Assembly: GCF_964355755.1 (NCBI RefSeq)
Contig: NC_092674.1
Span: 13,399,001-13,463,000, forward strand
DNA from: Antedon mediterranea
Taxonomy: Eukaryota; Echinodermata; Crinoidea; Comatulida; Antedonidae
DNA: 64,000 nucleotides
Reading direction: 5' to 3'
Notes under the pieces: generated by a model
What the model saw: only the letters and a program-made list of their open reading frames with translations
What the model was told of the DNA's origin: nothing
Database searches by the model: none
Made by a program: the position numbers and the translations under genes
Part shown: positions 3,522 to 62,892 of the stretch, piece by piece
Numbering within the stretch: position 1 is the first letter of the stretch
How the letters are laid out: every line of letters starts with the position of its first letter

Positions 3522-3523
<2 letters not shown>

Positions 3524-3561
<38 letters not shown>
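3524..3561. repeat. (TA)n microsatellite
   Basis: Uninterrupted AT dinucleotides of about 38 bp. The matching place in copy B (about 35309-35330) is shorter and interrupted. Confidence 0.95.
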
Positions 3562-3564
<3 letters not shown>

Positions 3565-7200: not shown

Positions 7201-7640
7201 TTCAAATTATCATGTCATTGTCCGTCTTGTTAGCCATTTTTTATGAACTAAAACGAAACACGACATGCAATTTAAACTAATAATTCGTGCGATTACAGCG
7301 CCTCAGATGCCAAAAGGTGACAATGTACAATTTTTTTTCCGATCCGAAAAATCATATTTCCATCACCGCATTTATAGGTTCTATACAGTGATTTGGCTTA
7401 AACTTGGTAAAAAGAATAACACATGACGTCTTATACGTATACTGTATATATAATTCAAGCTTAACAGATACAAACTGGAACGCCCACTCACTGGAAATAT
7501 TAATAAACAAACAATAACTACTACAAACTTGTGGATCAAGTCTAGCGAATCACCTAACCGTACAATGTACACACGCAACAATAGTGGACTAATCGTACAC
7601 AGCATAAAGTTTTATTAGCTGGTCTAACTTATAAAAGGAT

Positions 7641-9840: not shown

Positions 9841-9916
9841 GGGTCTTTATTTTTTAAATATGGGATTTCCCATATGGGATGGCCCAGATATTTAAGTCAT
9901 ATGGGCCCCATATGGG
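9832..9916. repeat. Cluster of CCCATATGGG palindromes
   Basis: Within about 85 bp the 10-bp self-complementary word CCCATATGGG or a close form occurs four to five times, including CATATGGGCCCCATATGGGC. It lies at the truncated 5' end of the retrotransposon. Confidence 0.8.
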
Positions 9917-16565: not shown

Positions 16566-16597
16566 TTATCTATTAAAAATCCACATAATTCTATCAG

Positions 16598-19500: not shown

Positions 19501-19646
19501 TGAAATAATATGTAATAATATGTTCTTGTTGTGAGTTTTTAATATTGGTATTGTTATGTTATTTTATATATTGTAATTGTGATGTATTTGAAGACGAGCA
19601 ATGTAATTTTCTCCTTGGGAACGAATAAAGACGCATGTCAATTTCT
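16598..19646 (+). mobile_element. Decayed non-LTR retrotransposon (endonuclease + RT)
   Basis: A nearly full-length ORF2 in several frames. 16622-17371 is an AP-endonuclease domain: SISNKMDELRAN, FTETWL, KGGGICIYIN, INGDFN, LDLCYTN, LGDH. 17539-17889 is the linker. 18128-18577 and 18526-19503 are the RT: KAPGPDKLKPNILKSC, FSSAFNTIQPHLL, GAPQGTVLAPFLFTLY, RFADDTAM, YLGVVFNNKLTW, ending SFLPTG. Frameshifts at about 17370, 17890 and 18530 make it inactive. The 3' end has a GGGAACGAATAAAG signal. It lies in sense orientation inside an integrin intron and is the same family as 23080-26207. Confidence 0.9.
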
Positions 19647-25300: not shown

Positions 25301-28300
25301 TAGTTAAATTTGCTGATCACAGGTTTAATTGTAAACAATGATGAGAGCACGTATAGAACTGAAGTTAATAATATAATTAACTGGTGTGATATGAACTGTC
25401 TAAGTATTAATGTAAATAAAACAAAGGAAATTGTGTTTGACTTTCGTAAAATTAAGAGGCAACTTATACCTTTAAATATGAAAGATAATGATGTCCGCAC
25501 AACTAGTGAACATAAATATTTAGGAGTATAGATAGATGAAAAACTGTCATGGAACGCCAAGACTGCCAAAGTCTATGCGAAGGCAAACCAAAGATTGTAC
25601 TTCTTAAGGAAATTAAGAAACTTTAAGATTGGCAGAGATGCGCTGTCTCTATTCCATCAGGCTATGATACAGTCCATATTAACATTTTGCTGTATTGTAT
25701 GGCTAAATAGTTTATCTAAGTATAACTCAAATAAATTACAGAGAATAATAAAAATGGCTAAGAAGGTAATAGGTGCAAACGTCCCATCTATCCATGATAT
25801 ATGCGATAAGGTTATGGAGAAAAAACTAAAATGTATAATTAACGGCCAGTCTCATCCTCTTTTTAACTTTATAAATTTCAGTAGATCCCGAAGGATGATT
25901 CCTTCAATTAAGAAGACTGAGCGTCATAATAAATCATTTCTTCCGTGTGCAATCAGGCAATACAACAAGCAATTTAAAAGATAACTTGAGACGTTTTATA
26001 TTTTATTCTTTATATAGTATTTTAATATTTATACTGTTCATAATGTTTTATACATAGCATATTTTCTTATATATTATCTTATCTATTGTATAGTATTGTA
26101 TGTTTTTAACTGTTGTTATTTTTATTGTAATTTGAACCTTGGAAGGCAAATTTCATTTACTGTGTATTTGACAATAAATTTTAACTTGAACTTGAACTTG
26201 AACTTGAGTATACTATAGTGGGTCAATTAGAGTAAAAAAGAAGTTCCAATTTTTAAAATCTGTTGCTGATGATAATTTACAATTAGTAAGTGCAAAATAT
26301 TAAAAATAATGTAACCCTATACATAGAAAATGTCACTCTTTTATATAGGATCGTGAGAGGAGGAGGCGAGACTCAAGTAGTCAATTTGTTATTTATAACT
26401 ATATTGTACATGTTAAATTTCTCTATTTCTAATAATGGCCAACTGCTATGTGATCAACAGTTACACTGGTGACGTGATCAGTTAGTTTTAAAAAATATAT
26501 GCAATGATTGTCATCATTATTACAGTTCAATAAAAATGTTATTACCATATTAACATGTTTTATATTATTCAAATTCAAAATTCAAAAATCTTTTATTGTC
26601 CAATTACATACAAAATACATACATGCCATTGGAAATGTGTCGTTTGATACACTACATACAAAACAATTAAAATATAAAGAGTTATACTGTACATCATTCA
26701 CAAAACATGTAACAACACAAGAAATAAAAAATTTAAATATAGAAAAAGCACACGTACTGTAACTTAAACTAAATCTTAATGCATGGTGTAGTGGAAAGAC
26801 TAGCCGAATGCCAAGCTACATTATAATCCAACCCACTAATTTTTTGCCAAATGTTGTAACCCGGCTCCTGATAATATACTGGTCATATATTTTCTTGAAT
26901 GCAATTAATATAATATAAAATGTATTATAAATAGAGCTTTTTTGTTATGATTAATATTTTTTTCTTTTTCAAGAATCCTTTAGAAAAAATCACAGGAAAG
27001 TTTTGCAACTGTAATAACTTCTCTTGTCGCAGAGATTCTGCTGACCTCATTTGTGGTGGTATGTTTAATTTTGTTTATACTGTATTTTCTTTTTCATGCA
27101 CATACTTTGGTCAATTTAAGCTCTGCTGACAATATTAAGGACCATATCAGCATTTTTCTACTACAGTAACTAAATATCTTGAATATGATTTTAGTCGTGT
27201 TTCAAATGTAGAAGCTATGATAGTCATTGCAATAAACAGTGTGTATTATTACCCAAATTAGATTATTAGATTATTGCATTGCATAAACAGGTTAAACAGA
27301 AACAAAATAGTTTAGTTACTGCAATAACTGCAATAAGATAATCAATCTCTGTAGACAATTTATTATATTATTTCTCTGTGATTTTTTGCCTTTGAACATC
27401 ATGAAAATGGTAGTATTACAAATGAGGTATTTAATTATTATTAATTATTATGAAAATGGTTTTGAGCATCTTGTGTATAATATACAGTATGCTGTGCTAT
27501 ATAACATGGACTTGATAGAAATAATTTATGACTAAGCTCTGTCTACACTATCACACTTTCTGTGCCTAAATTGACGTGCCGATGGACACGATAACATCAT
27601 ATCAATACCCTTTTTTTTGTCAAACTGTGATAGTGTAGACAGATCTTATAGGTATTTATTAACTTTGATAGGTCCATCAAAAGGAACATGCATTTGTGGT
27701 CAGTGTGAATGCAAGCCAGGCTATAGTGGTCCTGATTGCAGTTGTCCAACCAGCATTGAAAACTGCCTAGCATCTACTGGAAAAGAGTGCAATGACGCTG
27801 GACACTGTGAATGTGGTGTTTGCATGTGCAATGCAACACTGGTCTACGATGGCCCAACTTGTGAGGATTGTGATGTAAGTTCATTTATGTTAAAATATTT
27901 AGTGCATCCTCAAATTCAAATGTATGATGTCATCATCATCAGGATTGATCAAATGCCCTATTCATAGAAATATTAATAAATTATTATCCATTAGTTCAAT
28001 TTTAATTATTTTATTTCATGTAATCTGGGATCTCTTTTATACAAAGCTTCTGGTTTCTTGAGACTCCATTTCATCATTTTAACATTGTACAGTTACCATA
28101 ATAATTTATACTGTACCATAATTTTTCCAATGATTTTTCTGATGATGAATAAATGTATTTGTATTATAATATACTTCTATTTTCTATGTAAAACTGTCTT
28201 AAGTTTAAGTCATGTGACACCCATCACCGAATCGTTCCACCTATTTTGTACTTACTGTACGACAGAACCCCATAATCATATTTACTGATGTTTGTAGACA

Positions 28301-28782: not shown

Positions 28783-29762
28783 GTGTTTTAACAAAACTTT
28801 TCTCTGAAAACTACGCTGTTATGCAAATGAACAGAAATGAAAGCTCTTTATCAGCTATCTGTTCATGATGTTATAAGAACTGTATAATCTATACTGAGTT
28901 TTAGCAGGTACTGTATAATTTATGCCATTGTAAAATATTATTATAAAGATTTTCTTAAGCACTTAAAGGAAATCTTCTGTGATCTAATAGTTTTATATAC
29001 TAGTTGTTTATTATCTTGAATTATACAAAATTTGTAACAAATAAAGATTATTTATAAAGGAAGAAGAAGGTTTAATTGGTAAGAAGTCGAAAAGTTGAAA
29101 AGTAATAAACTAATTTATTATATTTATTTTTTATTTAATTTCATTTATATATTCATCCGTTAAAATTAAAATTGATTAAAAAAATGGTCCTCATCATCTG
29201 TTTTCTATGGGGTTGTGTATTGCTGATCTAGCGAATTATAGGGCTAGGCCTGTTTGTGTTAATCAAAAGCTTTCAGCACTTGCATATTGATGTTTCCAGT
29301 TCATAAATTCCTTTCAGGGAAATTGGTTGTTCGAATAGTTTTTACTTTTTGCGAACTGAAAAAAAAATCAGGAATTGATGGAAGTAATTCTCGGGTGGGA
29401 CATAAACCCATGACTTTTGGCAGTAATGACTGAAGCATTGTTTGCCAAAACATTTTATTTACTTTCAAAATATAAATCGCGTTAAAAAAAGTACTGCTCT
29501 AACCACTGTTGAAATATATCCCCTATGAAGAAAACTATGCATTGCTTTCTATAAAAACCTTGTATCTCCACATAGTTTTACAGGTGGATGCTTTATATTT
29601 TGTGCTAGGTAGGTGTGTAATGAATTGGAGAATGCCAGAGATTCCAGTAAAATATAAAACTTAATAATAAATATAAAATACATTTCTGGTTTTAGATAAG
29701 TATTTTGATAAAAGGCCACACAGATTCCAGTAATAATAATAATAATTAAATTCTGGTTTTTT

Positions 29763-32375
29763 GGTTATCCGCACTTGGCGGATAACCTCTTGTTATTGTC
29801 ACGATCTTTTTTTTTTAGGTGATCATTTAGAATAAAATGATCACCTATTGTTATTGTATCAAATCTTTGTTATTATTTATTACTTTCTGTACAGATTTTG
29901 TGTAACAGATATCTCAAAAAGTTTAATGTCAATGATTACCAAAATTTCACAATGTCTTTCAAATACTTTAACTTAGTTCTAATAAGCTTTTCAGCGTGAT
30001 CACTCAACCGTGACGTAATTTATACGCCATTTTGTGAAATCACATTATCAATCATATCTCCATAATTAATTATCACATATTAATGTAATTCACTAAACGT
30101 AAACTTCAGGTCAAGTGTAAAAATATTAGCAAATAAAAACGCACGCACACGTAGGGTCATGCGCGTGAAATCGCGCTTTAAAAATTTAAAAACCTCAAAA
30201 TTAAGTTTTGATCAATTTAGAGCATGAATTAGGCCATTTGTGTGTTTCAAAAAATTACTGCGCAAAAAATTTTTTTTGCGCGCGCGATACTTACGTAAAA
30301 AATACGATTTTTTTTTACAAATCGCATTCTACTCACCATCTTTAGTACATTCACCAAATTTGAGTCAGTTCCGATATAAAATAACGCTATACGAGCAGGT
30401 TCAAAATGATAAAATGCGCAAATTAATTGCATCAAAGTGTTGAAAATGGTGAAAAATAAGGCATTTTAAAAATCAAAATAATTCTTCAGAATGCACGATG
30501 ACCCCCAATTTTTTTAACTTTTTCTGGAAGCCGTTGAGTTGTAGATATGAATTCATGTACACATTTTACGTACAAAATGTTTTTACGTCATCAAATGGCC
30601 ACTTGAATTTAAAATTAAGTTATTTTTCTCTTTTGTCATTCTTTTTCACATTCAATAGAACGCATCTCTGTTATTTTGTGCCGGGTTTTCGCTCAATTTT
30701 CAGTATATGATTGCTCAATTAATTGACTTTCTTATGACTTGCCACTACTTTTATTTTGATGACGTCATCATGCGTAAAAACTTGATTAACATAGGTCGTG
30801 TAAGTTCACCTTCACCGTAAATTTGAATATCTTACAGCTCTTCAGAATTAAAGGTTACCTTGATGATTATAATTTATTATGAAAGCTGATGAAATGTAGA
30901 TATGAATTCATACAAAAAAAAAGCCTATTGGATGTTGTGACGTTAACATATGGCCAGTTGAAGTTAAAAAGTAGTATTTTCATCTTTTTCGTAAAAGTTA
31001 TACAAATTTCAAAGACCGCGTACAGCGCTTCTACGTGCCAAATTTTCTTCCAATTCTTATATTTATTTGCTCAATTCATTATCTTTCGAAATTGTCATCT
31101 TTGAGTTTATTTTGATAATTCCATCATACCACAAAATTGGAACATGATGTGTGTCCCGTAATTTTACCTATGCTACACTGTATATAGATATATACAGTAT
31201 ATACTGTACATAATGTATACATATAATAGGCACAACACAGCACTATAAGCGTATAATAGGATGGCATACATCAACATTTTTCGATTGTATGTTAACGTAC
31301 GTGCATGTTTAACAAAATATTAATGTCAATAAAATTATAAAAATGATCACCTATAATTCGTCTTTCCCAGAATTTTGTTGCGCGTGTATCTCTAAATCTT
31401 CTTAACATAACATTGTATAATTTTATCAGATGATTGACCTCTATCTGAAGATGTCGTAATAAGGTTTTCGGTCGCCTCTGAGATGCGCAGTGTAAGTTAC
31501 GCGCGATTTTAAGAATTTCAATGATTGATCATAGATAAAAAACTAAAAGTCATTTTGTATTGACACTTGGTGAAAATTTAAGTTATATCAAGGGCACACT
31601 TTCTAGGGATTAAAAATGGCATGTTTCACAAAAAGTGACTTTCTACGCGTTTCATGTTATTTTGAGCATGTCAAAAATTCGCACGTGGCGTTAAAAATAT
31701 ACTTTTTTCACGTGATTTATGTTTTTCCAGCCTTTTCTAGTAATTTTACCAACTTCTAAACAATTTAGACTTAAAATTACGTCATACGAGCACGTGGAAT
31801 TGGATAATTTGTTCAAAAATTCGTCAAAATTATGCCTTCTTTTAAACAGTCATAAATTCTAAACTACATGGTGAAGTTTATTTTTTATTACATATTATGG
31901 AAGTTGATGAGTTGTAGATATAGAATCATGCATCGATATGGCTAACCGGACATTGTGACGTCATCGTATGGCCACTCAAATATAAAATAGAGGATTTTTG
32001 TCTCTTTCATCATAGCTCATCACATTTAATAGAGCACATCTCCACTTATCCGTATTCCATTTCCCCCTATTTTTTTATTTTGTCTAGGCCAATCAATTGT
32101 CTTTCGCACGATATACCATTTTTTAAATTGTTATGACGTTATCATGTGCAAAAGCGTCAATAACTTTGGTCACTTATTTTCACCTATTCTGCACTGTATG
32201 TAGTACGTATACAATATATAGTGTAAACTGTATATACTTAGACGTGACACAAAATAGAGAGCAAACATTTTTTCAATGGCATAATCGTTTTTCTGTGCGC
32301 AATATTCTAACGTATGACGTGGCGTTTGCGCTGCGGATAACCTAACTCGTCTGTAGTGACGAGTTGAAATCTAGT
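29763..32375. mobile_element. Helentron/Helitron-like non-autonomous insertion (2.6 kb)
   Basis: Absent from copy A, where TTTTTATTATTTGG is continuous. The left end is a hairpin, GGTTATCCGC (29763-29772), loop ACTTG, GCGGATAACC (29778-29787). Near the right end GCGGATAACCT returns (32333-32343), followed by a second hairpin, AACTCGTC/GACGAGTT (32344-32365), then GAAAT, CTAG (32371-32374) and T. A 3' hairpin just before CTAG and T is the Helitron ending; inverted subterminal repeats fit Helentron-like elements. Inside there is no Rep/helicase frame. Sequence near 30540, 30895 and 31915 repeats a TTGTAGATATGAATTCAT-like unit with TGACGTCATC and TGGCCACTTGA-like parts. Confidence 0.75.
29817..31375. 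mobile_element. Second hairpin-ended element nested inside the Helentron-like insertion
   Basis: It begins with a hairpin AGGTGATCATTT (29817-29828) and AAATGATCACCT (29835-29846). The same AAATGATCACCT returns at 31341-31352, followed by an AATTC..GAATT hairpin. This repeats the architecture of the outer element with a different sequence. A fragment of this type is at 48081-48103. Confidence 0.5.
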
Positions 32376-32970
32376 ATTATTTGGAATTATTTCACAATTT
32401 TTAAGACATATAATACAAGGGTTAGCCATGATTTTGTAATAAATTTTTAGGAATCACTCTGATGTTGATATGAAAACTAAGGAATTCACTCTGATATTGG
32501 TATAAAAACAAGGAATTCACTTTGATATGGGTATGAAAACCGCATATTGTACAGTACAAATCAAAACTTTGCATGAGCCACTAAATATATGTGTTCCGAC
32601 AAAAAATACAACATTTTCTGATTTCTGATTGGCTGTTGTTCTGACAACATATTGGGTTAAAAAATATGGTATATATTAAAAATATTTTATTGATGTTAAT
32701 AAAATAATCTGATGGCAATTGGATTCAATTTAGAAATGATAATACTAATATTGCTGGTACAATCAATGAAACATATGTAGATTACATTAACATCATAAAA
32801 AATAACTATTTGAAGCAAAGTATCCTTAAAAACGTATGGTGTACGTTATTGTCAACGCAATGGATTATACAAACTGTCAATTATGATTGGTCAACTCACT
32901 AGCGTTTGTAGCGATTTCTGTTTTTTAAATCATTTTTTTCAGATTTTAATTATTTTTTTAATTATTTTAT

Positions 32971-33108
32971 TTATTTATAAATGTTTTTAAGTGTTATATT
33001 TGTATGTTACTTGTCTTGTCAAATTATTTTGTACTAAGGGTCCGTATTATGATCAGCTTTGTCTGGATGTACTATCCTTGTTAAATATTGTTGAAATAAA
33101 ATAAATAT
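32971..33108 (+). repeat. Dispersed non-LTR-like 3' tail (copy B)
   Basis: Counterpart of 1211-1348 by the large duplication. Confidence 0.6.
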
Positions 33109-33539
33109 GGGGACCACACCTTTTGGTAAAAAAACATTTTTTTAATATTGCCACTTAACTTTATTTTATATGAAACATAACCATGACTTTATGTTTGTTT
33201 AAATGAAACGCATCATCATTGTACTCTACAATTGTCTTAACCTTTTATTGAAATATCTGGTATCTTTATAGATAGAAAGTAGTTCACTACAGTTAAAATT
33301 ATAAAAGTGTATAAAAATAAAATAATAGTATGGAGGTTATGAATTTATTTATGCCAAATTTGTGGGTTTTTTTCACAGTAAATGGAACTGATCCTTGTAC
33401 ATACAAAGATGAACTTGGTTGTCTCTTCTCTTTTAACTTTGTTATGAATGGAACAATGGAGGTGATTCTGGTACAGAAAATAACATGTAAGTAATGTAAA
33501 AAGAAAACCCCAGCAAAATGAAACCCAATACATTGTCTA

Positions 33540-33677
33540 AAGCTCTGTCTATACGTACACTATCAAACTTTATGTGACAAAAACATGTTATGTGCCCATA
33601 TATGGTGATGAAAACTACCGTAATGGGTACATTACACTTTTTTGTCAAACTATTTTGATAGTGTAGACATAGAGCTA
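33540..33677. mobile_element. Short MITE (copy 3)
   Basis: Counterpart of 1780-1911 by the large duplication, with an ACGT-type insertion inside the left inverted repeat. Confidence 0.75.
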
Positions 33678-33970
33678 TATATCGAGATCTCTGTGCACTT
33701 CACACACGCGCACACACACCTTCATATATACAGTATACATCCCCTCATTTGACGGGGACAATTTGATGGACATCAGCAGGCATACTGAACTTTTTTCACA
33801 AACAATTACGAAAGAGTACCATCAGTAACCTGTATTCTTTGTATATTAAACATCTTTTATTTCAATTTGAGACATGCACTTCATTATTATACTAGACTTG
33901 TTTGTACAAAGTATGTGAAATGCATGATAGAGTTAGAGTGAAAAAAATGATTGTAATGGCTTTTTTGTAG

Positions 33971-34761
33971 GAAATATTTGCAGAAAAATAAATGTCAGTC
34001 AAGTGCAGCAAACACGGCTTGTCTTGATTCAACATGTGCAACACTTCATGTTAATAATTTATATGAATATTTATCAACATGTCGTACTTTATTTTCAGCT
34101 TGCCCAGAAGGAATAGATGCCTTATGGCTGGCTATTGGCATCATTATTGGTATATTACTAGTTGGTCTAGCCCTTCTGCTGGCCTGGAAGATAGCTACAT
34201 ATATATATGACAAACGAGAATATGCTAAATTTTTGAAAGAGTTAGAAAATGCACGAACAGATGCAGTAAGGAATGATTATTTTTTTTATCTTGTAGTTAA
34301 TGTTTATTTATTTATTATTTATGGTTTCCCTTTAAAGACCAGACCATTTTTATGTAGAGTCACCACTACATAGCATCCAAGTTCACTGTAGCTGACTTTC
34401 CAAGAAAACATTATTTATTTTAAACATTTCTATTTGCATTTGAACTCTCTATCTATCTCTATATCTATTTCTAGTATGATTATGATGTATCGTAGTATTG
34501 TAATTGAAAATGTTAAATCTAACAGTACTAGTAAATACCTTAAACTAAAAGTATAAGTATATATTTATGTCAATTTCTGTGATTAACATGCATTGCATTG
34601 GAACATTAGCATTGAAAATACTAATTGAAATGTAATATGTTTATGAAAAATTAAACCAAGAAAATATTACCTAGACATACTTACTTGCTTTTTTTCAGAA
34701 TATAAATCCCCTTTTTAAATCTTCTACGACAACCTACAAGAATCCAACATATGGTAAATAG
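33971..34761 (+). CDS. Integrin beta gene B, last beta-tail, membrane and cytoplasmic exons 14-16
   Basis: 33971-34002 is a 32-bp exon (acceptor TTTTTTGTAG, donor GTGCAG) encoding KYLQKNKCQS; its phases (one base in, one base out) join exon 28704-28782 to the next exon. 34099-34265 gives TCPEGIDALW, a roughly 23-residue hydrophobic helix (LAIGIIIG to LALLLAW), then DKREYAKFLKELENARTDA. 34699-34761 gives NINPLF, SSTTTYKNPTYGK and stop TAG 34759-34761. The tail has the membrane-proximal K/R-D-R-E motif used for the alpha-subunit clasp and two PTB-binding sites; the first is NPLF rather than NPxY. An unspliced read from 33978 through 34265 is also open and is probably a chance frame. Confidence 0.9.
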
Positions 34762-36737
34762 AAGGTTTTATGCAAGATGTTGATACCTGTTGCCAAACAA
34801 GACCTCATTCAGAACCATCCAACAAGGCCAGATCAAATTGAAAACTGATACACAGACTAAATGATATCAGAATAATAATTTATGGCAAAGTTCAGACTGT
34901 AACTGACAGATCAATCAAGCCTGTTATCAGAAAAAGAAATGCCCACTAGGCTACAACTGAGATCAGATCAAAGTACCATGAGATACTCTCCACTGGGCCA
35001 CACAGTAGGATATCAGAACAAAGTGGCTTGTCCAGATCCACAATACTAGATGCCGTGGCCAACACAAAATATACCACATAATTATATAAAATGGTCTGAT
35101 ACCAGAAACTTAACCAGAGCATCTTGTCAAACAGAATTCACCACAGGTATCTGATAGAACATGAAGTGTCTGTACTATAATTAGAGTTATTAATTCATTG
35201 GCTAGAGAGCTAACTCCATATTTAACAATAAATTGTTATATTCATTACCATAACAAATAAGTAATTTATAAAAACTGGACTGTACATTTATGTATGTTTA
35301 TATTTAAAAATATATATATATACTGTATATAAATTCTGACTCATGTATTCTTCATAATATTGTAAGTTATTGTTTTATGTTACTAAATAATATTTTTGAA
35401 AAGATACAGCGGATAATTTGTTAAGCACCAGAACTGTCCTCATCATTTTTCTGTAACATAGTTAGCACTCTAGTCAATCTATTAATACCTCAATGGTACT
35501 AGATCATGCTGAATTTGGTGCTAAGTTGCAATATGTGATAAAATTAGAGGTTGATTTGACAAAAAAAAATTAGGATTTAAGAATAAATTAGAGTAGCGTA
35601 TAGTGGTGTGGCCATGTCTTCTGCCTTTAAACAAAGTGCTTTATTTTATTTAAGATAAATATTTTATATAAAACATGTGAAAATGTTGTTATTTGTTCAC
35701 ATATTTTAAAAATTATAATAATATCTTATATTATGACAGTATTGTGAGCTTACCAAAAGTACTGTAATTGGTTACTCTATAATAAACCTTAAAACACAGT
35801 ACTGACTGTATAAATAAGAACTCACAGCCAGTGTTCAAAGGAAACTCTATTAGGCTTGGTTCCCACTAGGACGCAGTACAAGGACGTAAGCCGCAACGAA
35901 AGTTTGAATGATCTTTTGCGTTGTGGCTTACGTCATTGCATTGTGTCATATTGCGAACCAGACTTTAAGGGGACACTGGTCCCAAAGGTGTCCCCTTAAT
36001 ACAGTTTCCACTGTAATATTTATGCAGGTACATAACAAAGATGGAGGAATTTTCCCACTTCTATAAAAATATCCTAACTATCTAGTTTTCTGATTTGATG
36101 ATAATTCTCCAATTTATATGGATATGTTTCAAAAGTTTAATTGTTAAATTAATACATAAAAAGTAATATAAAGCTAAAAAGAATCTTTATAATGTTTAAA
36201 GTATTAAAAACTTCAAAAATCTTTTTAAAAAATGTTCATATTTCCTGAATATATCTCTTATATTTATCCTTCCTTAAATTCACAATATACACTTACTACT
36301 GTTTTTTTACTTGGGCCATTCGGCAATGTATTCATTCACTATTATACAATCACAGGTCAATACGTAACATTTTGTCTTCTAAATTTGACTCCATATACAT
36401 TAGTGTCAAACCTGTACAAAGGTCATATAAAAGGCAAACTGGTCCATACTGTTGGGTACTATAAACATTAGTAAAATCATATTGTAATATTACTACTTAC
36501 TACTGTTTTAAGTTTGTTTTTATTGTTACTTTGTTATTTATGTGTATATTATTACTTATTTAAGACATAAAAGACGTTTACTATATAATATCAATATGAA
36601 ATGTAATAACAAAATCAGATAAAAATGTTTATGAACCAGCGTGGAACCACTTTCATGATCAAACAATAATATTACATAGTATACCGTAAAACATCGAAAA
36701 GAAGTCCATCTCGATATCAATCCCATGACTTCTTTTC

Positions 36738-37173
36738 TTTTTTTCTCTTTCTTTTGTGGCGCAAACACCACTTTTATTCACATTCATATTATCTCATATT
36801 ACATAAAATCGTATTATTTAACTTGTAAATGTCGTTACAGTTCATAAGTAACATTTTTACATATATGAATTCTGTATTACTCCTGTTTTCATTAATTTTC
36901 TTATATTTTGCTTTACACTTGACAGGATCATCATTATCATCTATCCCGTTTTAAAATAGTTCACACATTTTCATTTGTTTGTTTTCATTTTACAACCCGG
37001 ATTATACAATATATTTATATACATGATAACAAGAAATAAAAACACAATAGGCCTAATAGCTCAGTATCACCAGTAACCCGTATCACAGTAATTCCTTTTC
37101 TGATAATCGTATCAAATTAGAAATTATATTAGCATAATAGTATTTCTTAAAGCTACCCATTTTTCTATACTTG
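36738..37173 (-). mobile_element. 5'-truncated retroposon with 12-bp target duplication
   Basis: Present only in copy B. The direct repeat TGACTTCTTTTC flanks it (36726-36737 and 37174-37185); copy A has one site. The T-rich left end means the element is antisense: on the minus strand, AATAAAAGTGGTGTTTGCGCC lies about 20 bp before an A-rich tail. No coding frame. Either a LINE 3' fragment or a retrocopied UTR. Confidence 0.75.
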
Positions 37174-39689
37174 TGACTTCTTTTCAAGATACTATGGGCT
37201 TCTTTTTCGAAATAGACTGTATTATAATGTCAAAGGAATAGAAATTTATGATCGTGTTATTATACGGTATCGATATTAATGACCTTGCAACCATTTTTAA
37301 CCATGGACTCACGTATATTTATTCTACAATGTATTGTTTTCCAAATGCTACTTTTATTTCATCTTGTATCTTCTTGTCTGCTTCCTTGGCAAATATATAA
37401 AATTGGCAGAGAATGTTTTAAAAATCATATATGAAACGTCATTAATTTAATCTTTTTGCCATTAGATTTTGTATTAGAATTATTTAATTCAAGTTTAATG
37501 TCAATCTTGATCATTTTTGATGAAATAACCGTCTTTAAAAAAACTGTTTACCGGTACATTATTGATTTTTGTTAGTATCAATGTGGTAGTTATTAATAGT
37601 TCAAGGGTTTGAATTGTGTAAACATTGAGTATTTAGTGAATTTAATATAAACCAATTCTTATTGTATTTTAGGCCTATGTAAGAGCACAAGCTCGTCCAG
37701 GGATGTCGGGTCGTTCGGTTCAAAATAATTCTAATCCTAAGGTGCCCTTTCAAGTTAGAAACCAGCAGCGAAAGTGGTAAATAGGCCTCATGACAATTAT
37801 TTGGAAAATTCATTCATCTACTACTATACTAGGCCTACAGCTATATTTTCTTTTAAAAATCTTGGCTATGGACTAGGAACAGCGAAGAGTAAGACTCGTT
37901 CATCTTTTAAAATTACAGTACAAAGCTCCCGGCCCTTAAAAAAAACATCAACAATACCAAAATTGATATTGCTTTTTATTTAATTGTGAATTACTATAAA
38001 ATAGTGTATTTATGTAATTATTAAATAATATATACTAAAAACAATCACATCTAACCCAATTCTGTGACATTAAAAAAAAAGGTGTATCTGATTTTCCAAC
38101 AGCATTTTTTATATAATCTTGTAATATATTTAGGCCTATAACTTAGTTTACACAATTTTATTTTTATTTATTTTTGTCTGTAAATAATTGTATCTGATCA
38201 TAATGTTATACTAGAAGAAAGAGATCGGCAATAATAAATAGCAATGTGTCGATTGGTCATGAAGGCACCAACTTCAATTTGTACACCAGGTATAATATAG
38301 ATCACGCGTTTATTTATTATGAGTGTTGATATTAACTGTACGTGTATTTTGCCATATACTTTTCATTAAATCAATTGACTTTAGTACAACCTTTACGTAA
38401 CGTTATATTTTAGAATTATGAATGCTGCTTTATTAGTAGTATGGCCTGTGTGGTATATTACGAGGTTGTATCGTCTTCTCGTCTTTAAAATCGACAGCGT
38501 AGGACACTGCGATGTCTTGCAATGTCCAGCAGATGAAGTGGTGCGCGCTGCGAGTGCTGTCTTACAACCTTATGAATTTAGTGTATGTATATAATGTTTG
38601 AAACATTAAATTAGTTAAATGTAATCCGTAAGTGCCTTGAAAAAAAAAGCTTGTAATATTTTGTATAGATATTTATAGTATTAACCGTACACAAATGTTT
38701 TTATAATAGCTATATTATTATAGGATAATATCAAATAAAACACTTTATCACATCATTTTGCCCTTTGTGTTACGTCATTGAATATAGCCTATATTCGTCT
38801 ATTGATCCTTCTAATAATATAGGCCTAAGTTGTCAAAATAAAGTACCGGCACAAACAATTCTTTTATTTTACGATATAAAAATTTATATTATAACTTAAC
38901 TTAACATTAATCTTTTACTTGACCACCAGCAGATAAATATGGATACTGTAGGTAATAGGTCTTTACTGTATTCATTTCTGCCAAAGATTTTTATTTTATA
39001 ATATGGTCGCGTTTAGTCTGAACTACGCGCGATTTTATGAAATGTTATCATCATAAATTCGAAACCAGATATTTTCCAATACAGCACTGGTTTATAATAT
39101 CAAAATAGTCAACTTTCTACAGAGCTTTACCATTTAAAATGCACACAATAAATGTCCTAAAACGTTGCCGGCTATTTTGAGCATTTCAAATTATCATGTC
39201 ATTGTCCGTCTTGTTAGCGTCACGCTCGTATTATGCACGGCGTACAAAACATACTTAACGAGGCCATTTTTTATGAACTAAAACGAAACACGACATGCAA
39301 TTTAAACTAATAATTCGTGCGATTACAGCGCCTCAGATGCCAAAAGGTGACAATGAAAATTATAGATGTACAATTTTTTTTCCGATCCGAAAAATCATCA
39401 TATTGCAAACTTATTTTTAGGATAGAGGATAATCATATTTCCATCACCGCATTTATAGGTTCTATAGAGCGATTTGGCTTAAACTTGGTAAAAAGAATAA
39501 CACATGACGTCTATATATAATTCAAACTTAACAGATACAAACTGGAACGCCCACTCACTGGTAATATTAATAAACAAACAATAACTACTAAAAACTTGTG
39601 GATCAAGTCTAGCGAATCACCTAACCGTAAAATGTACACACGCAACAATAGTGGACTAATCGTACACAGCATAAAGTTGTATTAGCTGG

Positions 39690-39728
39690 TCTAACCAGGG
39701 AAGAGTTATTAACTCTTCCCTGGTCTAA
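39690..39728. mobile_element. 29-bp perfect palindrome flanked by TCTAA
   Basis: 39695-39723 is a perfect 14-bp inverted repeat around one T (left arm CCAGGGAAGAGTTA). TCTAA stands on each side (39690-39694 and 39724-39728). Copy A (about 7617-7629) has one TCTAA and no palindrome, so 34 bp were added in copy B. An 8-bp duplication (TGGTCTAA) is an equally valid reading. The CAGGG terminus recalls hAT elements. Confidence 0.8.
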
Positions 39729-54018: not shown

Positions 54019-54606
54019 ACAATGCAAATAATGTAGGATAATTCAGTCCCTCTAATGGAATTCAACAACAAATAATTTAGGATAATTCAGTCCCTCTAAT
54101 TGAATTCAACAACAAACAATTTAGGATAATTCAGTCCCTCTAATTGAATTCAACAACAAATAATTTAGGATAATTCAGTCCCTCTAATTGAATTCAACAA
54201 CAAATAATTTAGGATAAGTCAGTCCCTCTAATTGAATTCAACAACAAATAATTTAGGATAATTCAGTCCCTCTAATTCAATTAAACAACAAATAATTTAG
54301 GATAATTCAGTCCCTCTAATTGAATTCAACAACAAATAATTTAGGATAATTCAGTTCCTCTAATTGAATTCAACAACAAATAATTTAGGATAATTCAGTC
54401 CCTCTAATTGAATTCAACAACAAATAGTTTAGGATAATTCAGTCCCTCTAATTGAATTCAACAACAAATAATTTAGGATAATTCAGTCCCTCTAATTGAA
54501 TTCAACAACAAATAATTTAGGATAATTCAGTCCCTCTAATTAAATTCAACAACACATCATTTAGGATAATTCAGTCCCTCTAATTGAATTCAACAACAAA
54601 TAATTT
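54019..54606. repeat. 44-bp satellite, about 13 units
   Basis: Unit starts AATTCAACAACAAATAATTT and continues AGGATAATTCAGTCCCTCTA then ATTG. Starts of AGGATAATTC fall exactly 44 bp apart (54035, 54079, 54123 and on). Units differ by only one to three bases, so the array is young or kept uniform. No unique spacers, so not CRISPR. Confidence 0.97.
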
Positions 54607-55270
54607 CATGAGATGAAAATGTGTTCCTTTGTTCCCATTGCACAAATATAATACATTTGTTTTATTAACAATTTGATTGGACGATTGTGGGTCATATGAC
54701 ATTAACTAAATGTACTACAGTATGGTACTGAAATTCAGTTTTATGAATTTATTTTTGTTAGAGAGAGATTGAGCAACCACACGCTTGAGAAGAGTCCAGG
54801 CTGTTGATTGATTAAGTAACCTGTAGAGGCCTGCAGTCTATTTGTTCAACTCCATGTCCAAAATTGGAATACTGCCTTTTTGAATGGCAACATTATATTT
54901 TGTTATGATTTAACCAGATACAAAAATACATACAAATATAACAATATTTTGTCATTCACATACCTGACATCTCATGATGTCAGGTACGTGACCTATGTTA
55001 AAGTACTTGTATTACTTTGGTCTATTAAAACATAGTTGTATCTTGCACTTCTAATAACATTATTTCAATAGGTCTTCTATATTGTCCTTTATTAACTATG
55101 TATCTCCTATTGTTCATACAAATTGTTTATTTGTTGAACTGAGTTACCATATAGCTGCAGTTTATACGGTCTACTGTAGGTTTTGAATAGACACTTTAGA
55201 CTGTTTCTAGAAATTCTACAATATCCATTCTCAACTTCCATCAAGGCTTTTACAACTTCCTCTCGTTGGT
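54607..55270. other. Downstream flank of the ROCO gene
   Basis: No gene seen. TTTATT at about 55087 is a possible polyadenylation signal for the minus-strand gene. Confidence 0.5.
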
Positions 55271-55542
55271 TCACATCTCTTTCTTGGTTTCTAGTAATTC
55301 TACAATATCCATTCTCTCAACTGCTCTCAAGGCTTTTATTACTTCCTCTTGTTGTTTCACATCCCTTCCTTGCTTACATCGCCATTGTACCAGTGATTCC
55401 ATTGTTGCTTCTACAGTCAGCGCTGAAAACCTTCTCTCAGTTTGTGATAGCTCAACATCAGCAATACCAAGATGCCTACAGAAATTCTTCCAATCTGTCA
55501 TCTTCTCAGAAATTATCAGGAAGTCCAAGTCTGTTAAGCATC
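55271..55542 (-). CDS. ROCO gene last exon: death domain 3
   Basis: Reads TDLDFLIISEKMTDWKNFCR then HLGIADVEL, later SLVQWRCKQG, VIKALRAVERMDIVELLE and stop. W, LGI, W and the final ..R.D..E.L pattern are the six-helix death-domain signature. The phase-1 acceptor allows exchange with the other two. Confidence 0.88.
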
Positions 55543-58500
55543 CTGTAAAAACACATTTAATTGACTTCATTAAATAAAATACATTTGGTTGTTTTTCTTC
55601 AAACATTCAGGTGCTGAAATTAAGCAACATTTCTGGAATGTAACATTCTATTTGTGTTGGCAGAAATCATGAATAATGCTTGAGCCTAATTACTAATTAT
55701 TTTATTATTATTTTATTCTTAGAATTACAAGATAGCTAACATATTTCCTGAATACAAGAAAACTTAACCCTCGAAAATATACAAAGAATGTGTCCTTACG
55801 TAAAATACATATTGCACAATTTCATCACAACAACATAAGTTACATAAATATTTGATCGTACCCCTGAAACATGGGTCAATATTGGATGTAGTTTACTGAT
55901 TGGAGGCATCTGTATGGCCAGTAAAAATACACTTGTTTTATCGGTGATGAATGGGAAGGCATGGACCATTCTCTTTTATGTTTTTTCAGATGCGTGTTCA
56001 TTTTAGACACAGTTTTGTTTGTTTGTTTTTATATATCTAGGCAAATTTCCAAGGATAATCATAAGCGAATTCAATCACTATCCTTCTTAAGGTGGCAATC
56101 CCATTCACAAGACAAACATATACACAAGATGCTCTACATAAACGAAGTCTTATTACAAGTCTTTGGGGGTGGAGTTGTATTTTTCATTATAAAACATCCT
56201 GACATATGACAGGAATTGAACCCAGGAGAACCCAAATTAGCTTAATCACATTTAAAACATTTCTTGTTTATCGAATGATTGCTGATGACAATAGAAAGTC
56301 AAAAGTGATTATTTCTACAGTAGTATCAGGTATACATATAACATTTGTTTTTATAACAATCATTACCCACCTTGTCCTGATTGGTCTGTAAACACTGCAA
56401 CTTCTAAACTGACATCATCTTTGTATTCATATCTTGTACACAGGCTATCAGCTAAATCAACACGTCCCTGTTGTTTAAAAGCCTTGATCATTGTAGGTAG
56501 CTGTTGTGCTTCTCCATGTTGACAGCTATTTCTCCATTGGACCAATATCTCCATTATGGCATCTTCTACATGTTTGTTTTTGTCTGAAATTTTATTAACG
56601 TTGTCCCATTTGATTCCAAGTCGCACTGCTAGTCTTCTCCAACTTTGATTTAAATTGTCACAGATGAATAAGAGATCTTGATCATCAAAAAAAGCTGTGA
56701 AATAATAAAAGCAATAAGGTAATGAGTTCTGTTTCAATTAAATTCAACTCCCTATTCCATGCAATATTTATTTCGGAATCTCTCGTCCATAGAAAATAAA
56801 CATTATCAGAATATTTTTTTTTAAAAGCATTCATGAGCAAGATTTTATAACACACCTAAGATTCTTAATTTAATTTGAGAATTGCGAGTAATTTTTTATT
56901 TATATGTGCTATTGCTCTCTTAATGATGTCATTGAGAGTGCAATGTTGTTATATGTGCACACAAGTACCTGCAATTTCATTTTGCATGTTCATTTTTGTT
57001 ACACGGTGAGTGAGCAACCACATGTTACAAGAGGCGAGGCTATTGTTGCCTCTCCTTTTATCAAAAGTAGGTGTATACTCATAAACATTCATTACTTGTA
57101 TACTATTTAATGGCACGAATCATTACAATATAAAATGCAATGTACCTGAATGTTTGATAACCTTGTGTATTTCATTGTCAACATATTTGTGAAACAGCAG
57201 ATCAGCAAGATCATTACGACCATGTTGTCTTAGTGCAGTACACAATACTTGTTGCTGATTAAGGTCACTACCAATGTTTCTCCTCCAATGTTTGAGCATC
57301 TTTGCTGTAGCTTTATCTGTTTGCTTTTCATTATCAAAAATAGTATTCACTTTAGACCATGTAAGCCCCAAACGAACACCAAATCGTCTGCAGGAAAGAT
57401 CCATCTCTCTGGACACTTTATCAATAGTTAGGTCATCCACATAGTCTATATCGAAAAACAAAATTTTATTTCTATTGTGTTTTTAATCCTTCACAATAGT
57501 AACTAAACATAATAATTATTTTATCATAATATATACCTTTGTTATCCTTGACATCTGACATCCTCCTTCGTTTACTAGATCCCTTAACTTTTGATTTTAG
57601 AGATGTTTTCCCCTTCATCATTTTATGAGACTTAGCAACAGTATCAACAGTATCATCATCATCATCATCATCAGTATCAGATTCTGGATCTATGTTCTTC
57701 TGTCTACCAGCTTCTTTTGAGGTAGAAGCTATAATGACAATAAAAAAACAAATTAGTGATAAAGTTAAACCAAGATGTACAATTGCTTGTTTTGTATTGT
57801 TATTTTATGTAGTATTACTCTTTTAGTTATAATAATCATAAATTAAATTTAGTTATTTATGAATGTCTTAGTTTGGCAATTCAGGAATTAGATTTAAAAA
57901 TGATGATCTTCAAAAATATACACTAATGATAATTTCTGTATTAGCTGAACAGTTTTTTATTTTCAATACTTTACCATCAACTTGTTGACATACAGTATAT
58001 TGCGATGTATAGTGTTGATATTAATGTATATCTGTGAAAGTCAGTTGCATTCAAAAATCGCATGGTTTAAACATTAAAAACCTAGAATTGTAGTGTACGA
58101 TGATGATGATAAACATTCATAATACATATTTTACCATCAACCGCACCTTTGTTATCCTTCTTGGAGGAAAATAATCTCTTCACTTTACGAGTGATTCTTT
58201 GAAGTCTTGAAGTAGAAGCTTGTGCATTGCTGTGACCATCACTGTCAGAATCTAGAGCTATGCTTTGTTTTGTACGATCTTTCGATTCAGATGCTAAACA
58301 AAAATAAATTGAAAAGCAACATTTTACAAACTGTATAAACTAGATGTACATCTTCAATAATACTGTTTTTTTTTATTCTGTGGATTATCATAAATGATGA
58401 TGACACAGAATTATTATAAAAATCTAAAACAAGTTTTTTTTTCTACTTTTCTACATTTTATGGCATTTATATAATAGTTGAAAGATTGTAACTTCTTATA

Positions 58501-60558
58501 ATGAAGTAACATACAATTATTATTCATTTTTACATGAATGATGCAAATAAAATGTCTTATATCCATTAAGTATACTTAAATAAATAAAGAATATATATAT
58601 TTTTTATTTTCGAAATTGTTAACTTGAATCCTCATTTATTTTGTTTGGTTTAAGAAATTTTTTTTTTTATTTTACTTCATCCTAAATTAAAAGTTTCACT
58701 GATGGATAATACACAAAACAAATCCTCTACCTTTTAGTACAATGTCTCCAAACAGATTACGATAACGTTTCACTTCCATTCCTCTGCTTCCACATGGCAG
58801 CACATCTTTGTCAAATTTGCGTACAACATGCATATGAGTATGTTCACCTTTTGAACCACACACACAAGGGATGTACATCTTTACTTTAACACCATGTGCA
58901 TTCTTCTCACTCAAAAAGTGCAATTCTTTTTCAAGAAATGTTAGTACCTATAAAATAGAATAATTTGATTTAGTTGATTATTTTGAGTAGTATTAGCTAT
59001 TTAAATAATTATACAAACTAAAAATGTGTATATATAATCTATATGCAATATTATAAACATACAAGATGAATGAAAAAAAAACACCTTTTAATGTAGATAA
59101 TTGCCATATTTTCCCCGATTTTGATTTAGTTGAGTATTTTGCTACCCACAACAAAAAGTAGTATTAGCTATTTAAATAATTATACAAACTAAAAATTAGT
59201 AAATGGAGCAAAGAATGATAACATGTAAGCATGTTTCCGAATAGGATCACCAAAACATATTCAAATACAAAATACATTATTATTTTACTATTAAGTGTAC
59301 ATTACAGTTTAAATAAATTATTAATTATTGTGTATTGTTTAATTTTGTTTAATCATCAAAATTGTTAATCTCTACATATCCAACTCATAAACATTATTTT
59401 TACATTAACTTACGTTCTTACAGATGCTAGGTTTTGGATCATCATCTTCAGGAAGGCCAGCAGCATTCATCATGTCTGTTCTAACTATTGTTGTCTTTGG
59501 GTACTATTACTTACCTTCTTACAGATGCTAGGTTTTGGATCATCATCTTCAGGAAGGCCAGCAGCATTCATCATGTCTGTTCTAACTATTGTTGTCTTTG
59601 GGTACTATTACTTACCTTCTTACAGATGCTAGGTTTTGGATCATCATCTTCAGGAAGGCCAGCAGCATTCATCATGTCTGTTCTAACTATTGTTGTCTGC
59701 AATATCAAAAATCAATTTTTGTTTTATTTTCATTTGACAATTGTCTTTCTTTAATTGTCATTAAAGCAATTGCCACTTAATCTATAATCTATATATAATC
59801 TATATGTAATATTATAAACATACAAGATGAATGAAACAAGGCCAACAGCCATTAAGTCGCGTGCTACAATGCATAGTGATACCGGACCGACAGACAGACC
59901 GACAGACAGACCGACAGACAGACCGACAGACCGACAGACAGACCGACCGACCGACATAGTGAACTATACTGACCGAAATTACTGAACATGTTTAAAAATG
60001 TTGAAATGTTTAAAAACATTTATATTTTTTTAATTTACACGTGCGTAGCCTGTCACTTTTGACATGCTCGTATAACGTAATTTCGAGTTGAAAAGTAAGT
60101 CAAGAAAACAGAAATCGGGCAAAAAGAGTGCGCAATAACATTTAACAAGCAGTGCGCGTGCAAAAATATGCGCACTCATGGCAATTTTTTAAACGCTTAA
60201 AATTGCCTGAAACGTACTCTTATTTCATTGAAAATAAATTTTGAAAATGTTAAGCGCGCGTACGCATGCGTTACATGCGCTACGCACGTAATTGTATTGC
60301 CATATGATGATTTATGCCCTGAAATTTATGAGTACCAAATTTTATTTTATTGTGATTCATGGTTGTGAAGATATGATTACAAACGTGATTTCGTTAAACC
60401 GCGTAATTTTTTATTGCGCACCGTGAAAACATAACCACATTGATTCCTGGCCATAAGGAATATACTGTGAAAAATTGACCTAGCTAGATTAAACTGATAT
60501 CAAGATAAGGTCAGAAAGCGATAAAACGCAGAGTGATACCGGACCGACAGACAGACAG

Positions 60559-60604
<46 letters not shown>

Positions 60605-62892
60605 CGACAGACAGACAGACAGACGGACCAACCGACCGACATAGTGAACTATAGAGTCGCTTCCACGCGACTAAAAACACCTTTAGGTGTTGGCAAGATA
60701 ATTGCAATATTTTCACTGATTTTCTGCCAACATGTTTCTGGTTGTCTGTCCTATAATGCTTAGTGTGTTTTACTTATATTAATTTTTATTCAAGTAAATG
60801 TTGAACAATCATTTGCTTTTTATTTTAGTCTATTTCCATTTTACTGTTATTTTATTATGTTATATCTATAATGGAGAATATAACTGAAAATCTGAAACTG
60901 ATAATGTTTCTATTTTAATTTTATTTTAGACTGATATTTTCTCAGAGGTAATTAAACATTTAGAGTTATGTTCCTTAGATGATACTTTCTCAGATTTAGT
61001 TTTTAGTCTTATAGCATCATTTTTATTAAGTTTACCTGAAACAAACGGCAATTGTTGATGGTAGCTACATTTAGAACCACAAAATGATGGCCATCAATAT
61101 GCAGTTCTACATGCTCATAGGACAATGTAGGCTCAACATCTTCCATTTGAAATTCCTCAATAAATTTTGTTGTGACACGTTGAAAGAGATCATCTGGTAG
61201 GTATCCATCAAAGTCATGAAAGAGAGAAATAGCACGTCTCTCTTCATATTTAACAGCCTTTGTATCATCACGTTGGGGATTTAGGCGTGAAAGAACATAG
61301 AACGTTCGTTCAACATTCTATAGAGACAAAAATGGAACATGAGTAGTAGATCGAATATATGAAAAAATAATTGAACTAAATATTTTAAATAAAATGTAAA
61401 TACCTCTTTACTCCTTTTTTCACACATTAACCCAAAGGTTTGCATCAGAGACACAAAGAAGATAATCATCTCATCTGAATCATCCTTCCATATATGCCGC
61501 AACAGTCTTTCATCTAGTTTACCCCCATTTAAATTTCTCCAAAGCTGTTTCAAAGATGGCTACAAAAATATAAAAGCACAAGTGTAATTTGTCAATGCAA
61601 CAAAGTAATTACTGTTCTTCTGGTCAGTAAAACCTCTTATTTAGGACAACCTTATTGAAACTTACTTGTGCAATGAATGAGGTTAACATCACAGCTAACA
61701 TCTATTAAGTGGACACTTTGTTGGGTCTTCCCTTAATGGGAGTGCTACAGTAATACGTTTATAAGCATATATTTTAGTATTAGAATATAATAGAATTAAT
61801 AAGATATAATTTCGTTCTCTGTGTGGCAGATATTACATGTTTACAGCTAAATACATCACACTGAAAAACAATGTTTACATATGATATTCACCAATGACTG
61901 ACACCACTCAAAGAAGTGAAGTTTGCAAACCTGAAGGCTGGGATCTATAACTGTGATGATTGTTTTGAACTTGTCAACTACTCCCATCAAATCTATAACA
62001 ATTTTTTCTTTGAGGATCTTGTCATCTGGGTAGAACAGAATCTCACCGATGTCGTGCAAATACTCAAGAAACTGTTTTCTGTCAGTTATCTTACAACTAG
62101 CAAGTAAATCATTAATCTAAAAGGCAAAGAAATATTATAATGAAAAATTTAACGAAAACAAAAATGTTGATTAATTACAAACTGGTTTTCTGTTGATGTT
62201 ATCAATCATTTCGTTAATGTTGAAAGGTTGTTTATATAGGACATAATATTTTATCATGCAAGGGTAGATTTGACATCTGAAAGTTTCCTAACCAACAGTA
62301 AACTCAAGGTTCACCACTTACTTACTTACTTCAATAATTGTTATTGCCAAACAAAATGTTCATTTGGTTTTTGGCACTAAAAGAATTGCACCATTCCTGT
62401 TTGATAAACATTTGTTGAAGATTCACCATAAACGGTCAATTAACACAGACAGCAAAGCAGGGATACTGTTAATGTTACTATCAATAACAAGTTTTTTTTC
62501 ACTTTAACACCATTCGATGCAGCAATAACAAAAACAGGGTTTAATGCTTTAATGTGATTTAAGAATAAACAAATGTAATGGATGTTAAACACTTATTATT
62601 AAAACACCAATCAATTTTGTTATATAAATGTATATATTCTAACCTCAGATGTTGGTAGATACAGTTTGTCTTTTCGTAACTTTTGTATTTCCTGCAGTAC
62701 TTGTAGCCATTTGATTGGCAAAGTAAGAATCATCATCTGGACTAATTTTTGTATTTGGAGAATGATTTTAGAAGCACCGCTCTTTTCAAATGAGACACTG
62801 TTTTCAATGGTAAAGAGCTCTTCTTGAAACACCATGTCCTCAAATGGTTTTCCTTCCAGGGCTTTCCAAAGTTTATTCTCTATTGCCCTTAC
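55271..62892 (-). CDS. ROCO-family protein, C-terminal part: COR domain plus three death domains
   Basis: Exons in coding order: 62644-62892, 61931-62116, 61404-61559, 61036-61317, one of three copies ending at 59696/59595/59494, 58731-58947, 58135-58293, 57537-57728, 57146-57445, 56371-56694, 55271-55542 (TGA 55271-55273). Frames are open and phases agree (0 up to exon 6, then 1-1). The first five exons read as a COR domain, the next is the Cys/His region after COR, the next two are charged linkers, and the last three are death domains. ROCO proteins join a Roc GTPase to COR, which mediates dimerisation and GTP-dependent signalling; DAPK1 is a known ROCO protein with a death domain. The Roc domain and start must lie beyond 64000. 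Three tandem death domains are unusual to my knowledge. No lesion was seen. Confidence 0.88.
55878..56005 (+). repeat. Dispersed repeat, partner of 53712-53845
   Basis: In the intron between death domains 2 and 3. Confidence 0.7.
56040..56230 (-). mobile_element. tRNA-derived SINE (copy 2)
   Basis: Matches 19715-19890: CACAAGATGCTCTACATA, GTCTTTGGG.GTGGAGTTGTA and CCTGACATATGACAGGA.TTGAACCCAGGA. It keeps the B-box but the tRNA-like 5' part is lost. Intronic in the ROCO gene. Confidence 0.7.
56371..56694 (-). CDS. ROCO gene exon: death domain 2
   Basis: Reads FFDDQDLLFICDNLNQSWRR then LAVRLGIKWDNVNKI, EILVQWRNS and MIKAFKQQGRVDLADSL. Phase 1 at both ends. The C-terminal DQSGQG links to the last exon. 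Confidence 0.9.
57146..57445 (-). CDS. ROCO gene exon: death domain 1
   Basis: Reads YVDDLTIDKVSREMDLSCRR then FGVRLGLTWSKVNTI, MLKHWRRNIG and LCTALRQHGRNDLADLLF. Phase 1 at both ends, like the other death-domain exons. Confidence 0.9.
57537..58293 (-). CDS. ROCO gene linker exons (two related copies)
   Basis: 58135-58293 starts ASESKDRTKQS and ends KDNKGAVDG. 57537-57728 starts ASTSKEAGRQK, holds a run of aspartates from an ATC repeat, a basic KSKVKGSSKRRR patch, and ends KDNKG. Shared starts, ends and 1-1 phase indicate an exon duplication. Low complexity, probably a flexible tether; KRRR could be a nuclear signal. Confidence 0.8.
58731..58947 (-). CDS. ROCO gene exon after COR, Cys/His-rich
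   Basis: Reads VLTFLEKELHFLSEKNAHGV, then IPCVCGSKGEHTHMH, LPCG and NLFGDIVLK. ROCO proteins often have a VPC..C segment after COR. The CxC and HTHMH spacing could bind zinc (inference). Phase 0 in, phase 1 out. Confidence 0.82.
59414..59696 (-). repeat. Triplicated ROCO exon (101-bp tandem unit)
   Basis: Three copies at 59616-59696, 59515-59595 and 59414-59494. Each is an 81-bp, 27-codon exon (TTIVRTDMMNAAGLPEDDDP then KPSICKK, ending KN in the last copy) followed by a GTAAGT donor. Spacers are only 20 bp (GTAAGTAATAGTACCCAAAG). Only the first copy in coding order has a full acceptor and upstream intron. Reading through the spacer hits TAG, so one unit must be used by splicing. Confidence 0.93.
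59837..60673. mobile_element. Helentron/HINE-like element with GACA/GACC arrays
   Basis: An empty site within the same intron (59037-59105) matches both flanks, so boundaries are seen directly: TACAAGATGAATGAAA on the left, AAAACACCTTT on the right. AGTCGCGTG (59855-59863) returns inverted as CACGCGACT (60664-60672). The right end is a hairpin AGTCGC/GCGACT (60655-60672). Two arrays of GACAGACC/GACA repeats (about 59885-59955 and 60542-60635) are each followed by ATAGTGAACTATA. No protein frame; the frames at 59751-59957 and 60489-60763 are simple-repeat artefacts. Confidence 0.75.
61036..62892 (-). CDS. ROCO gene: COR domain exons
   Basis: 62644-62892 (83 codons) is the Roc-COR connecting helix region, with LTLPIKWLQVLQEIQKL. 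61931-62116 (62 codons) has QFLEYLHDIGEILFYPDD and DKFKTIITVIDP, the COR winged-helix core usually read as FLH.LGD..YF..D and the following WL...F..I. 61404-61559 (52 codons) has GGKLDERLLRHIW and LMQTFGLMCE, the COR G.L....L..IW..L...FGL pattern. 61036-61317 (94 codons) has ERTFYVLSRLNP and FDGYLPDDLFQRV, the COR-B start. All exons are phase 0 and contain whole codons. Confidence 0.85.

Follow-up and report, generated by a model that had tools for sequence, protein, structure and literature searches.

We analysed a 64,000-nucleotide stretch of the genome of the crinoid Antedon mediterranea (contig NC_092674.1, positions 13,399,001 to 13,463,000 of the forward strand; hereafter the window) and found on its minus strand, between 55271 and 62892, a chain of exons in which a COR region is followed by three different death domains (DDs), named DD1, DD2 and DD3 in their order along the protein. 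We read this chain as the 3' part of an Antedon gene belonging to a lineage-expanded ROCO family, whose product would be a scaffold presenting its DD cassette to death-fold partners. The domains, the exon phases, the conservation of the trio in two genera and the variation of DD2 and of the linkers between relatives are observed, whereas the signalling mechanism is inferred. We give this joint reading a probability of roughly 0.48, a little short of even odds. Judged from sequence, the role of the gene is probably in immunity or cell death.

Once joined, the eleven exons (A to K, with exon E counted once) give an open reading frame of 801 codons that ends at 55271, with AG acceptors and GT donors at the borders of the chain and a stop codon closing exon K (Table 1). 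In the joined protein, Pfam detected COR-A (PF16095) at 57.5 bits, the cut-off being 35.3, and Death (PF00531, cut-off 22.6 bits) in three stretches. Because exons I, J and K each exceed the cut-off when scored alone (Table 1), the three death-domain matches are not a product of chance. The original prediction had described a COR-bearing gene ending in three DDs, and the Pfam search that it proposed bears this out. Its statement that the DD exons all begin and end in phase 1 holds for exons I and J, but not for the terminal exon K, which runs from phase 1 to the stop. Exons G, H, I and J, all of them 1-1, could be added without changing the frame, as it had proposed for the death-domain exons, and DD2 and the linkers do vary among relatives. 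No leucine-rich repeats (LRRs) were found by Pfam in the 801 residues; the repeated symmetric exons of this gene are DDs and linkers.

The nearest protein model, P0001 (Antedon mediterranea), is identical to exons A to C at 197 of 197 residues (all exons in Table 1) and could represent another allele or another assembly's version of this gene, or else a sister copy. The COR exons A to C are thus identical, yet the DD exons I and J differ at 6 of 100 and 11 of 108 residues; this contrast could be due to death domains that change faster or to gene conversion among the copies. The predicted structure of P0001 aligned with the C. tepidum COR chain 3dpt over 341 columns (E 1.7e-9) and contained three six-helix bundles corresponding to the DDs, the structure ahead of COR being of low confidence. 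When the DDs were compared by Foldseek with those of FADD, TNFR1, PIDD, RAIDD and ankyrin, the probability was 1.00, yet the E-values reached only 0.03-0.25. DD3 is acidic in all six rows compared and DD1 and DD2 are of mixed charge, and no conclusion was drawn about a charge code.

The family to which the gene belongs was assembled from cluster representatives of three protein searches, made with the COR, with a Roc-COR profile (best 120 of 166 matches) and with the DD region, the search candidates being limited by shared words and length. It comprises at least 45 crinoid proteins, 23 from Antedon and 22 from Anneissia, genera of different families within the order Comatulida. Pfam scans covered 44 of these, all but P0005, whose extra C-terminus was set aside as a transposon-fused model and matches LINE-type frames in the window. 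Among the 44, Death passed the cut-off in 22, Roc (cut-off 27 bits) in 21 and both in seven, and ten had at least three Death stretches. The family is ROCO, because P0009 and P0013 have Roc and P0002 part of Roc, each with COR; the window copy shows the COR part of a ROCO protein. In the two paralogues P0009 and P0013, Roc scored 40 bits. In P0013 (Anneissia), Roc, COR and three DDs all pass the cut-off, and the predicted structure of this protein has a Roc-COR fold that matches Chlorobium Roco and LRRK2, whereas P0009 contains a Roc P-loop, COR and exons A to D and then ends. P0002 (Antedon) combines a partial Roc of 23.5 bits, below the cut-off, with COR and three DDs. Exon A continues the Roc-COR junction found in the family paralogues, and the junction between exons D and E is crossed by P0001, P0002, P0008, P0012 and P0013, in two genera.

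The family is also joined to a range of other domains. One gene model, P0040 (Anneissia), contains DED, macro, Roc, COR and a death domain, and another, P0041 (Antedon), joins a caspase with Roc; the DED and macro matches of P0040 and the caspase match of P0041 exceed their cut-offs. Ankyrin scored above the cut-off in P0044 and below it in P0015, P0038 and P0039, ahead of the Roc-COR region; ZU5 was above the cut-off in P0027. In P0036, DED passed for the protein as a whole with no single stretch passing alone. P0024 (Antedon) has a TAZ zinc finger and KIX ahead of Roc-COR, both above cut-off, which may reflect a fusion of neighbouring gene models. All 29 matches of the COR search were from Antedon mediterranea or Anneissia japonica, and relatives with several DDs outside the crinoids were found neither among these nor in the DD-region search (8 of 8 crinoid), the candidates in both being limited. 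The best 120 of the 166 matches of the Roc-COR profile search included crinoids, one brittle star, one coral and bacteria. The brittle star protein (P0042) joins Roc-COR to a Schlafen-type domain, and that of the coral (P0049) combines HEPN with Roc, COR and a single death domain (23.7 bits).

A tree of 32 DD rows placed DD1, DD2 and DD3 each in one clade containing both genera, with support of 90/99, 97/96 and 100/99 respectively. The tree held all DDs of eight sources with the order 1-2-3 (the window, P0002, P0008, P0010, P0012, P0013, P0017 and P0132), both DDs of P0035, P0038 and P0133, and two outside DDs; P0001, P0003, P0004, P0016, P0030 and the other proteins with one or two DDs were left out. 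The DD3 clade also took in the second DD of each of P0035, P0038 and P0133. Because each clade holds both genera, the trio predates the split between Antedon and Anneissia. The original prediction had treated the DDs as copies added in this gene; recent exon duplication as the source of its three DDs is ruled out by the presence of both genera in each clade of the tree it had called for. In a tree of 64 rows the DD1 group was supported at 100/100 and the DD3 group at 97/100. Same-position identity between the window and P0013 was 53% for DD1, 52% for DD2 and 38% for DD3, compared with 31-34% among the window's own DDs and up to 35% across positions with P0013, and by identity alone DD3 is the least distinct of the three types.

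Type-specific profiles gave the order 1-2-3 in 11 proteins as well as in the window, 1-3 in four (P0014, P0015, P0018 and P0026), type 1 alone in three and 1-2 in one. In P0035, P0038 and P0133 a first domain intermediate between types 1 and 2 is followed by a 3. P0030 (Anneissia LOC117110565), which has twelve Death stretches, reads 1-2-3-(2 fragment)-1-2-2-2-3-(2 fragment)-1-2-2-3, so that its three blocks hold DD2 once, three times and twice; a DD2 fragment following DD3 is also present in P0132. This order may come from an annotation that fuses neighbouring genes, and one giant protein of 12 DDs is only a candidate reading of P0030. In these protein sequences DD2 is the type most often missing, and it is the one repeated in P0030. 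The linkers also vary among four Antedon models, P0001 having G only, P0004 H only, P0003 both and P0002 neither. The pattern fits, short of proof, a gain and loss of DD2 and linker cassettes through phase-1 introns; the same differences could also arise from alternative splicing or from choices made in annotation.

Several observations weigh against our reading. The family proteins scanned by Pfam are predicted models, some partial and some possible fusions, and the variation of DD2 and linkers was read from such models of the relatives, exon borders being known for the window gene alone. The COR-A match upholds one half of the ROCO identity given in the original prediction, but Roc was absent from the 64,000-nucleotide window, which holds only 1.1 kb upstream of exon A, and Pfam found none in P0001. 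When compared with the 44 proteins, this 1.1 kb gave no convincing match (best E 0.008 over 22 residues). Of 25 echinoderm ROCO rows, 24 have lost the aspartate of the G4 motif THxD and P0031 alone keeps it, whereas T[HN]AD is kept in 10 of 10 non-echinoderm rows; the P-loop and DF[GA]G motifs are retained in the echinoderm Roc rows. Given the loss of this aspartate, nucleotide binding, specificity or switching may be altered in the family. A fixed link between the trio and ROCO is put in question by P0003 and P0004 (Antedon), which begin in exon E, and by P0132 (Anneissia), in which DD1-DD2-DD3 follows a long N-terminal stretch with neither Roc nor COR and precedes a weak DED match of 20.4 bits, under the cut-off. 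Finally, the support of the DD1 clade in the 32-row tree is slightly below the usual mark, and in the 64-row tree DD2 is weak (57/76).

Perhaps the window copy arose by a recent duplication and is decaying or incomplete: the recency would explain why its COR and DD exons are still open, but Roc would have been lost and no working protein would be made. This would agree with P0001, which has no Roc and passes from an initial 34 ankyrin-like residues, absent from the window and 59% identical to the ankyrin tail of P0044, directly to exon A; it would also agree with the triplication of exon E, the partial duplication at the end of exon K and the differences from P0001 in exons I and J beside identical exons A to C. 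However, every exon is open with AG/GT borders over 801 codons and all three DDs exceed the cut-off, and we consider such a decay unlikely. The window copy may also be Roc-less by function, a DD scaffold or decoy that would bind paralogues or adaptors through its COR and DDs and damp or tune their signal with no GTPase switch of its own. P0001, Roc-less and with low-confidence structure ahead of COR, and P0132, with its trio alone, are consistent with this, although Roc may lie further upstream, beyond the window; its chances seem to us poorer again than those of decay.

The chain might finally represent two genes, one for Roc-COR that stops at exon D and another, separate one for the death domains that begins in exon E. 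P0009 stops right after exon D, P0003 and P0004 begin in exon E, the intron between D and E is about 1.3 kb long with simple repeats, and P0132 has the trio with neither Roc nor COR. The five models that cross the D-E junction in two genera nevertheless speak against a boundary at this point, and we regard two genes as highly improbable.

Table 1. Exons of the COR-bearing gene in the window, with phases, content and agreement with P0001
Feature	Coordinates	Strand	Phase	Content	Residues identical to P0001
Exon A	62644..62892	-	0-0	Start of COR segment; open, AG/GT borders	83/83
Exon B	61931..62116	-	0-0	COR-A	62/62
Exon C	61404..61559	-	0-0	COR-A	52/52
Exon D	61036..61317	-	0-0	COR-B-like segment	90/94
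Exon E copy 1	59616..59696	-	0-0	Post-COR, 81 nt; ordinary acceptor	27/27 (one copy of exon E in P0001)
Exon E copy 2	59515..59595	-	0-0	Same as copy 1; probably not spliced jointly with copy 1	
Exon E copy 3	59414..59494	-	0-0	Last base unlike copy 1 (Lys to Asn codon)	
Exon F	58731..58947	-	0 to 1	Post-COR segment, conserved in Antedon and Anneissia	69/71
Exon G	58147..58293	-	1-1	Acidic/basic linker	42/45
Exon H	57537..57728	-	1-1	Acidic/basic linker	skipped in P0001
Exon I	57146..57445	-	1-1	DD1; Death 39.6 bits; six-helix bundle in P0001 model	94/100
Exon J	56371..56694	-	1-1	DD2; Death 42.1 bits; nearest solved chains PIDD, FADD	97/108
Exon K	55271..55542	-	1 to stop	DD3; Death 39.4 bits; nearest solved chains FADD, TNFR1	88/90

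Exon E and its donor lie in a tandem array at 59408-59698 (101-bp unit, 2.9 copies, 99% match). Because stops are met when the three copies are read through, one copy per transcript is expected; its last codon is Asn in P0003, as in copy 3, and Lys in P0001 and P0004. The end of exon K carries a partial tandem duplication at 55203-55372 (period 86 bp, 2 copies, about 85% alike), and the stop of its frame falls at the start of the second copy. Directly downstream of the gene is a satellite-like array at 54025-54606 (44-bp unit, 13.2 copies, 96% match). Elsewhere in the window, large duplicated blocks at 1-7628 and 29148-39695, mostly 84-97% identical, both contain a frame for an integrin beta cytoplasmic domain (2176-2529, 26.9 bits, and 33957-34370, 27.8 bits; cut-off 23.4). 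A retrotransposon-like frame at 7786-9846 on the minus strand has a reverse transcriptase of 126.3 bits, and 16589-19503 and 23240-25984 on the plus strand are retrotransposon-like as judged by their frames and by matches to the transposon-like tail of P0005.

Among known arrangements a close one is that of DAPK1, kinase-ankyrin-Roc-COR-death domain, an order also given in the abstract of PMC12365538. The crinoid proteins share with it a Roc-COR followed by a death domain and, in some relatives, ankyrin in front; they differ in having three different DDs where DAPK1 has one. Pfam matched no protein kinase in the 44 crinoid proteins, a set with many partial models. LRRK1/LRRK2 and the C. tepidum Roco are alike in the Roc-COR fold predicted for P0013 and the COR fold predicted for P0001, and are unlike the crinoid family in its DD cassette, in the lack of any kinase or LRR match in the scanned proteins and in the G4 aspartate loss already described. 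Passages of PMC4104024 report at least 17 ROCO genes in Trichoplax, some with CARD or death domains, and passages of PMC5094078 a sea-anemone gene, NG3, in which kinase, Roc, COR, death domain and TIR occur together. These and the coral P0049 resemble the crinoid proteins in uniting Roc-COR with a death domain or CARD, but P0049 has one DD and the passages on Trichoplax and NG3 contain no row of three. Passages of PMC8195603 describe AP-GTPase-COR conflict systems in prokaryotes and TRADD-N domains that have expanded in particular lineages of marine animals. In brown algae, according to passages of PMC11378527, expanded LRR-ROC-COR genes with in-phase repeat exons are proposed immune receptors in which single 72-bp phase-2 LRR exons are shuffled, at the sensor end; in the crinoids, by contrast, it is the phase-1 death-domain and linker exons that vary, at the output end. 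Our searches of the open-licence literature yielded no paper dealing with ROCO genes of crinoids or with a ROCO protein that has tandem, or three, death domains. The crinoid family is to this extent little described.

How such a scaffold might work can be outlined from the known parts. The Roc-COR of C. tepidum Roco and of LRRK2 dimerises. In the Roc-bearing crinoid members, Roc-COR would likewise form a nucleotide-regulated dimer and bring the DD cassettes together. The three different DDs, which are putative docking sites for death-fold adaptors as the original prediction had supposed, would recruit partners such as FADD-, RAIDD- or PIDD-like adaptors, DED proteins or caspase proteins, and the assembly of these partners would set off a cell-death signal or an immune signal of the NF-kB type. 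The valency or the choice of partner would depend on whether a DD2 exon had been gained or lost. The window copy, if it is without Roc, would be a Roc-less scaffold or a modulator of its paralogues.

A broader proposal, which we offer as a possibility on the doubtful side, is that this family is a crinoid ROCO counterpart of the NLR immune receptors. Its Roc-COR switch would duplicate and carry exchangeable ends (ankyrin, DED, caspase, macro), and the middle DD of its phase-1 exon cassette would be copied or lost to adjust valency, with up to 12 DDs per protein. Death-fold signalling is usually built from single domains on separate proteins. With a conserved trio carried on one COR or Roc-COR scaffold, a copy number of DD2 that differs between sister genes would offer a direct test of death-domain valency against signalling threshold. 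Echinoderms would also have in it a ROCO-based path to immunity alongside that suggested for brown algae, varied at the output and not at the sensor end.
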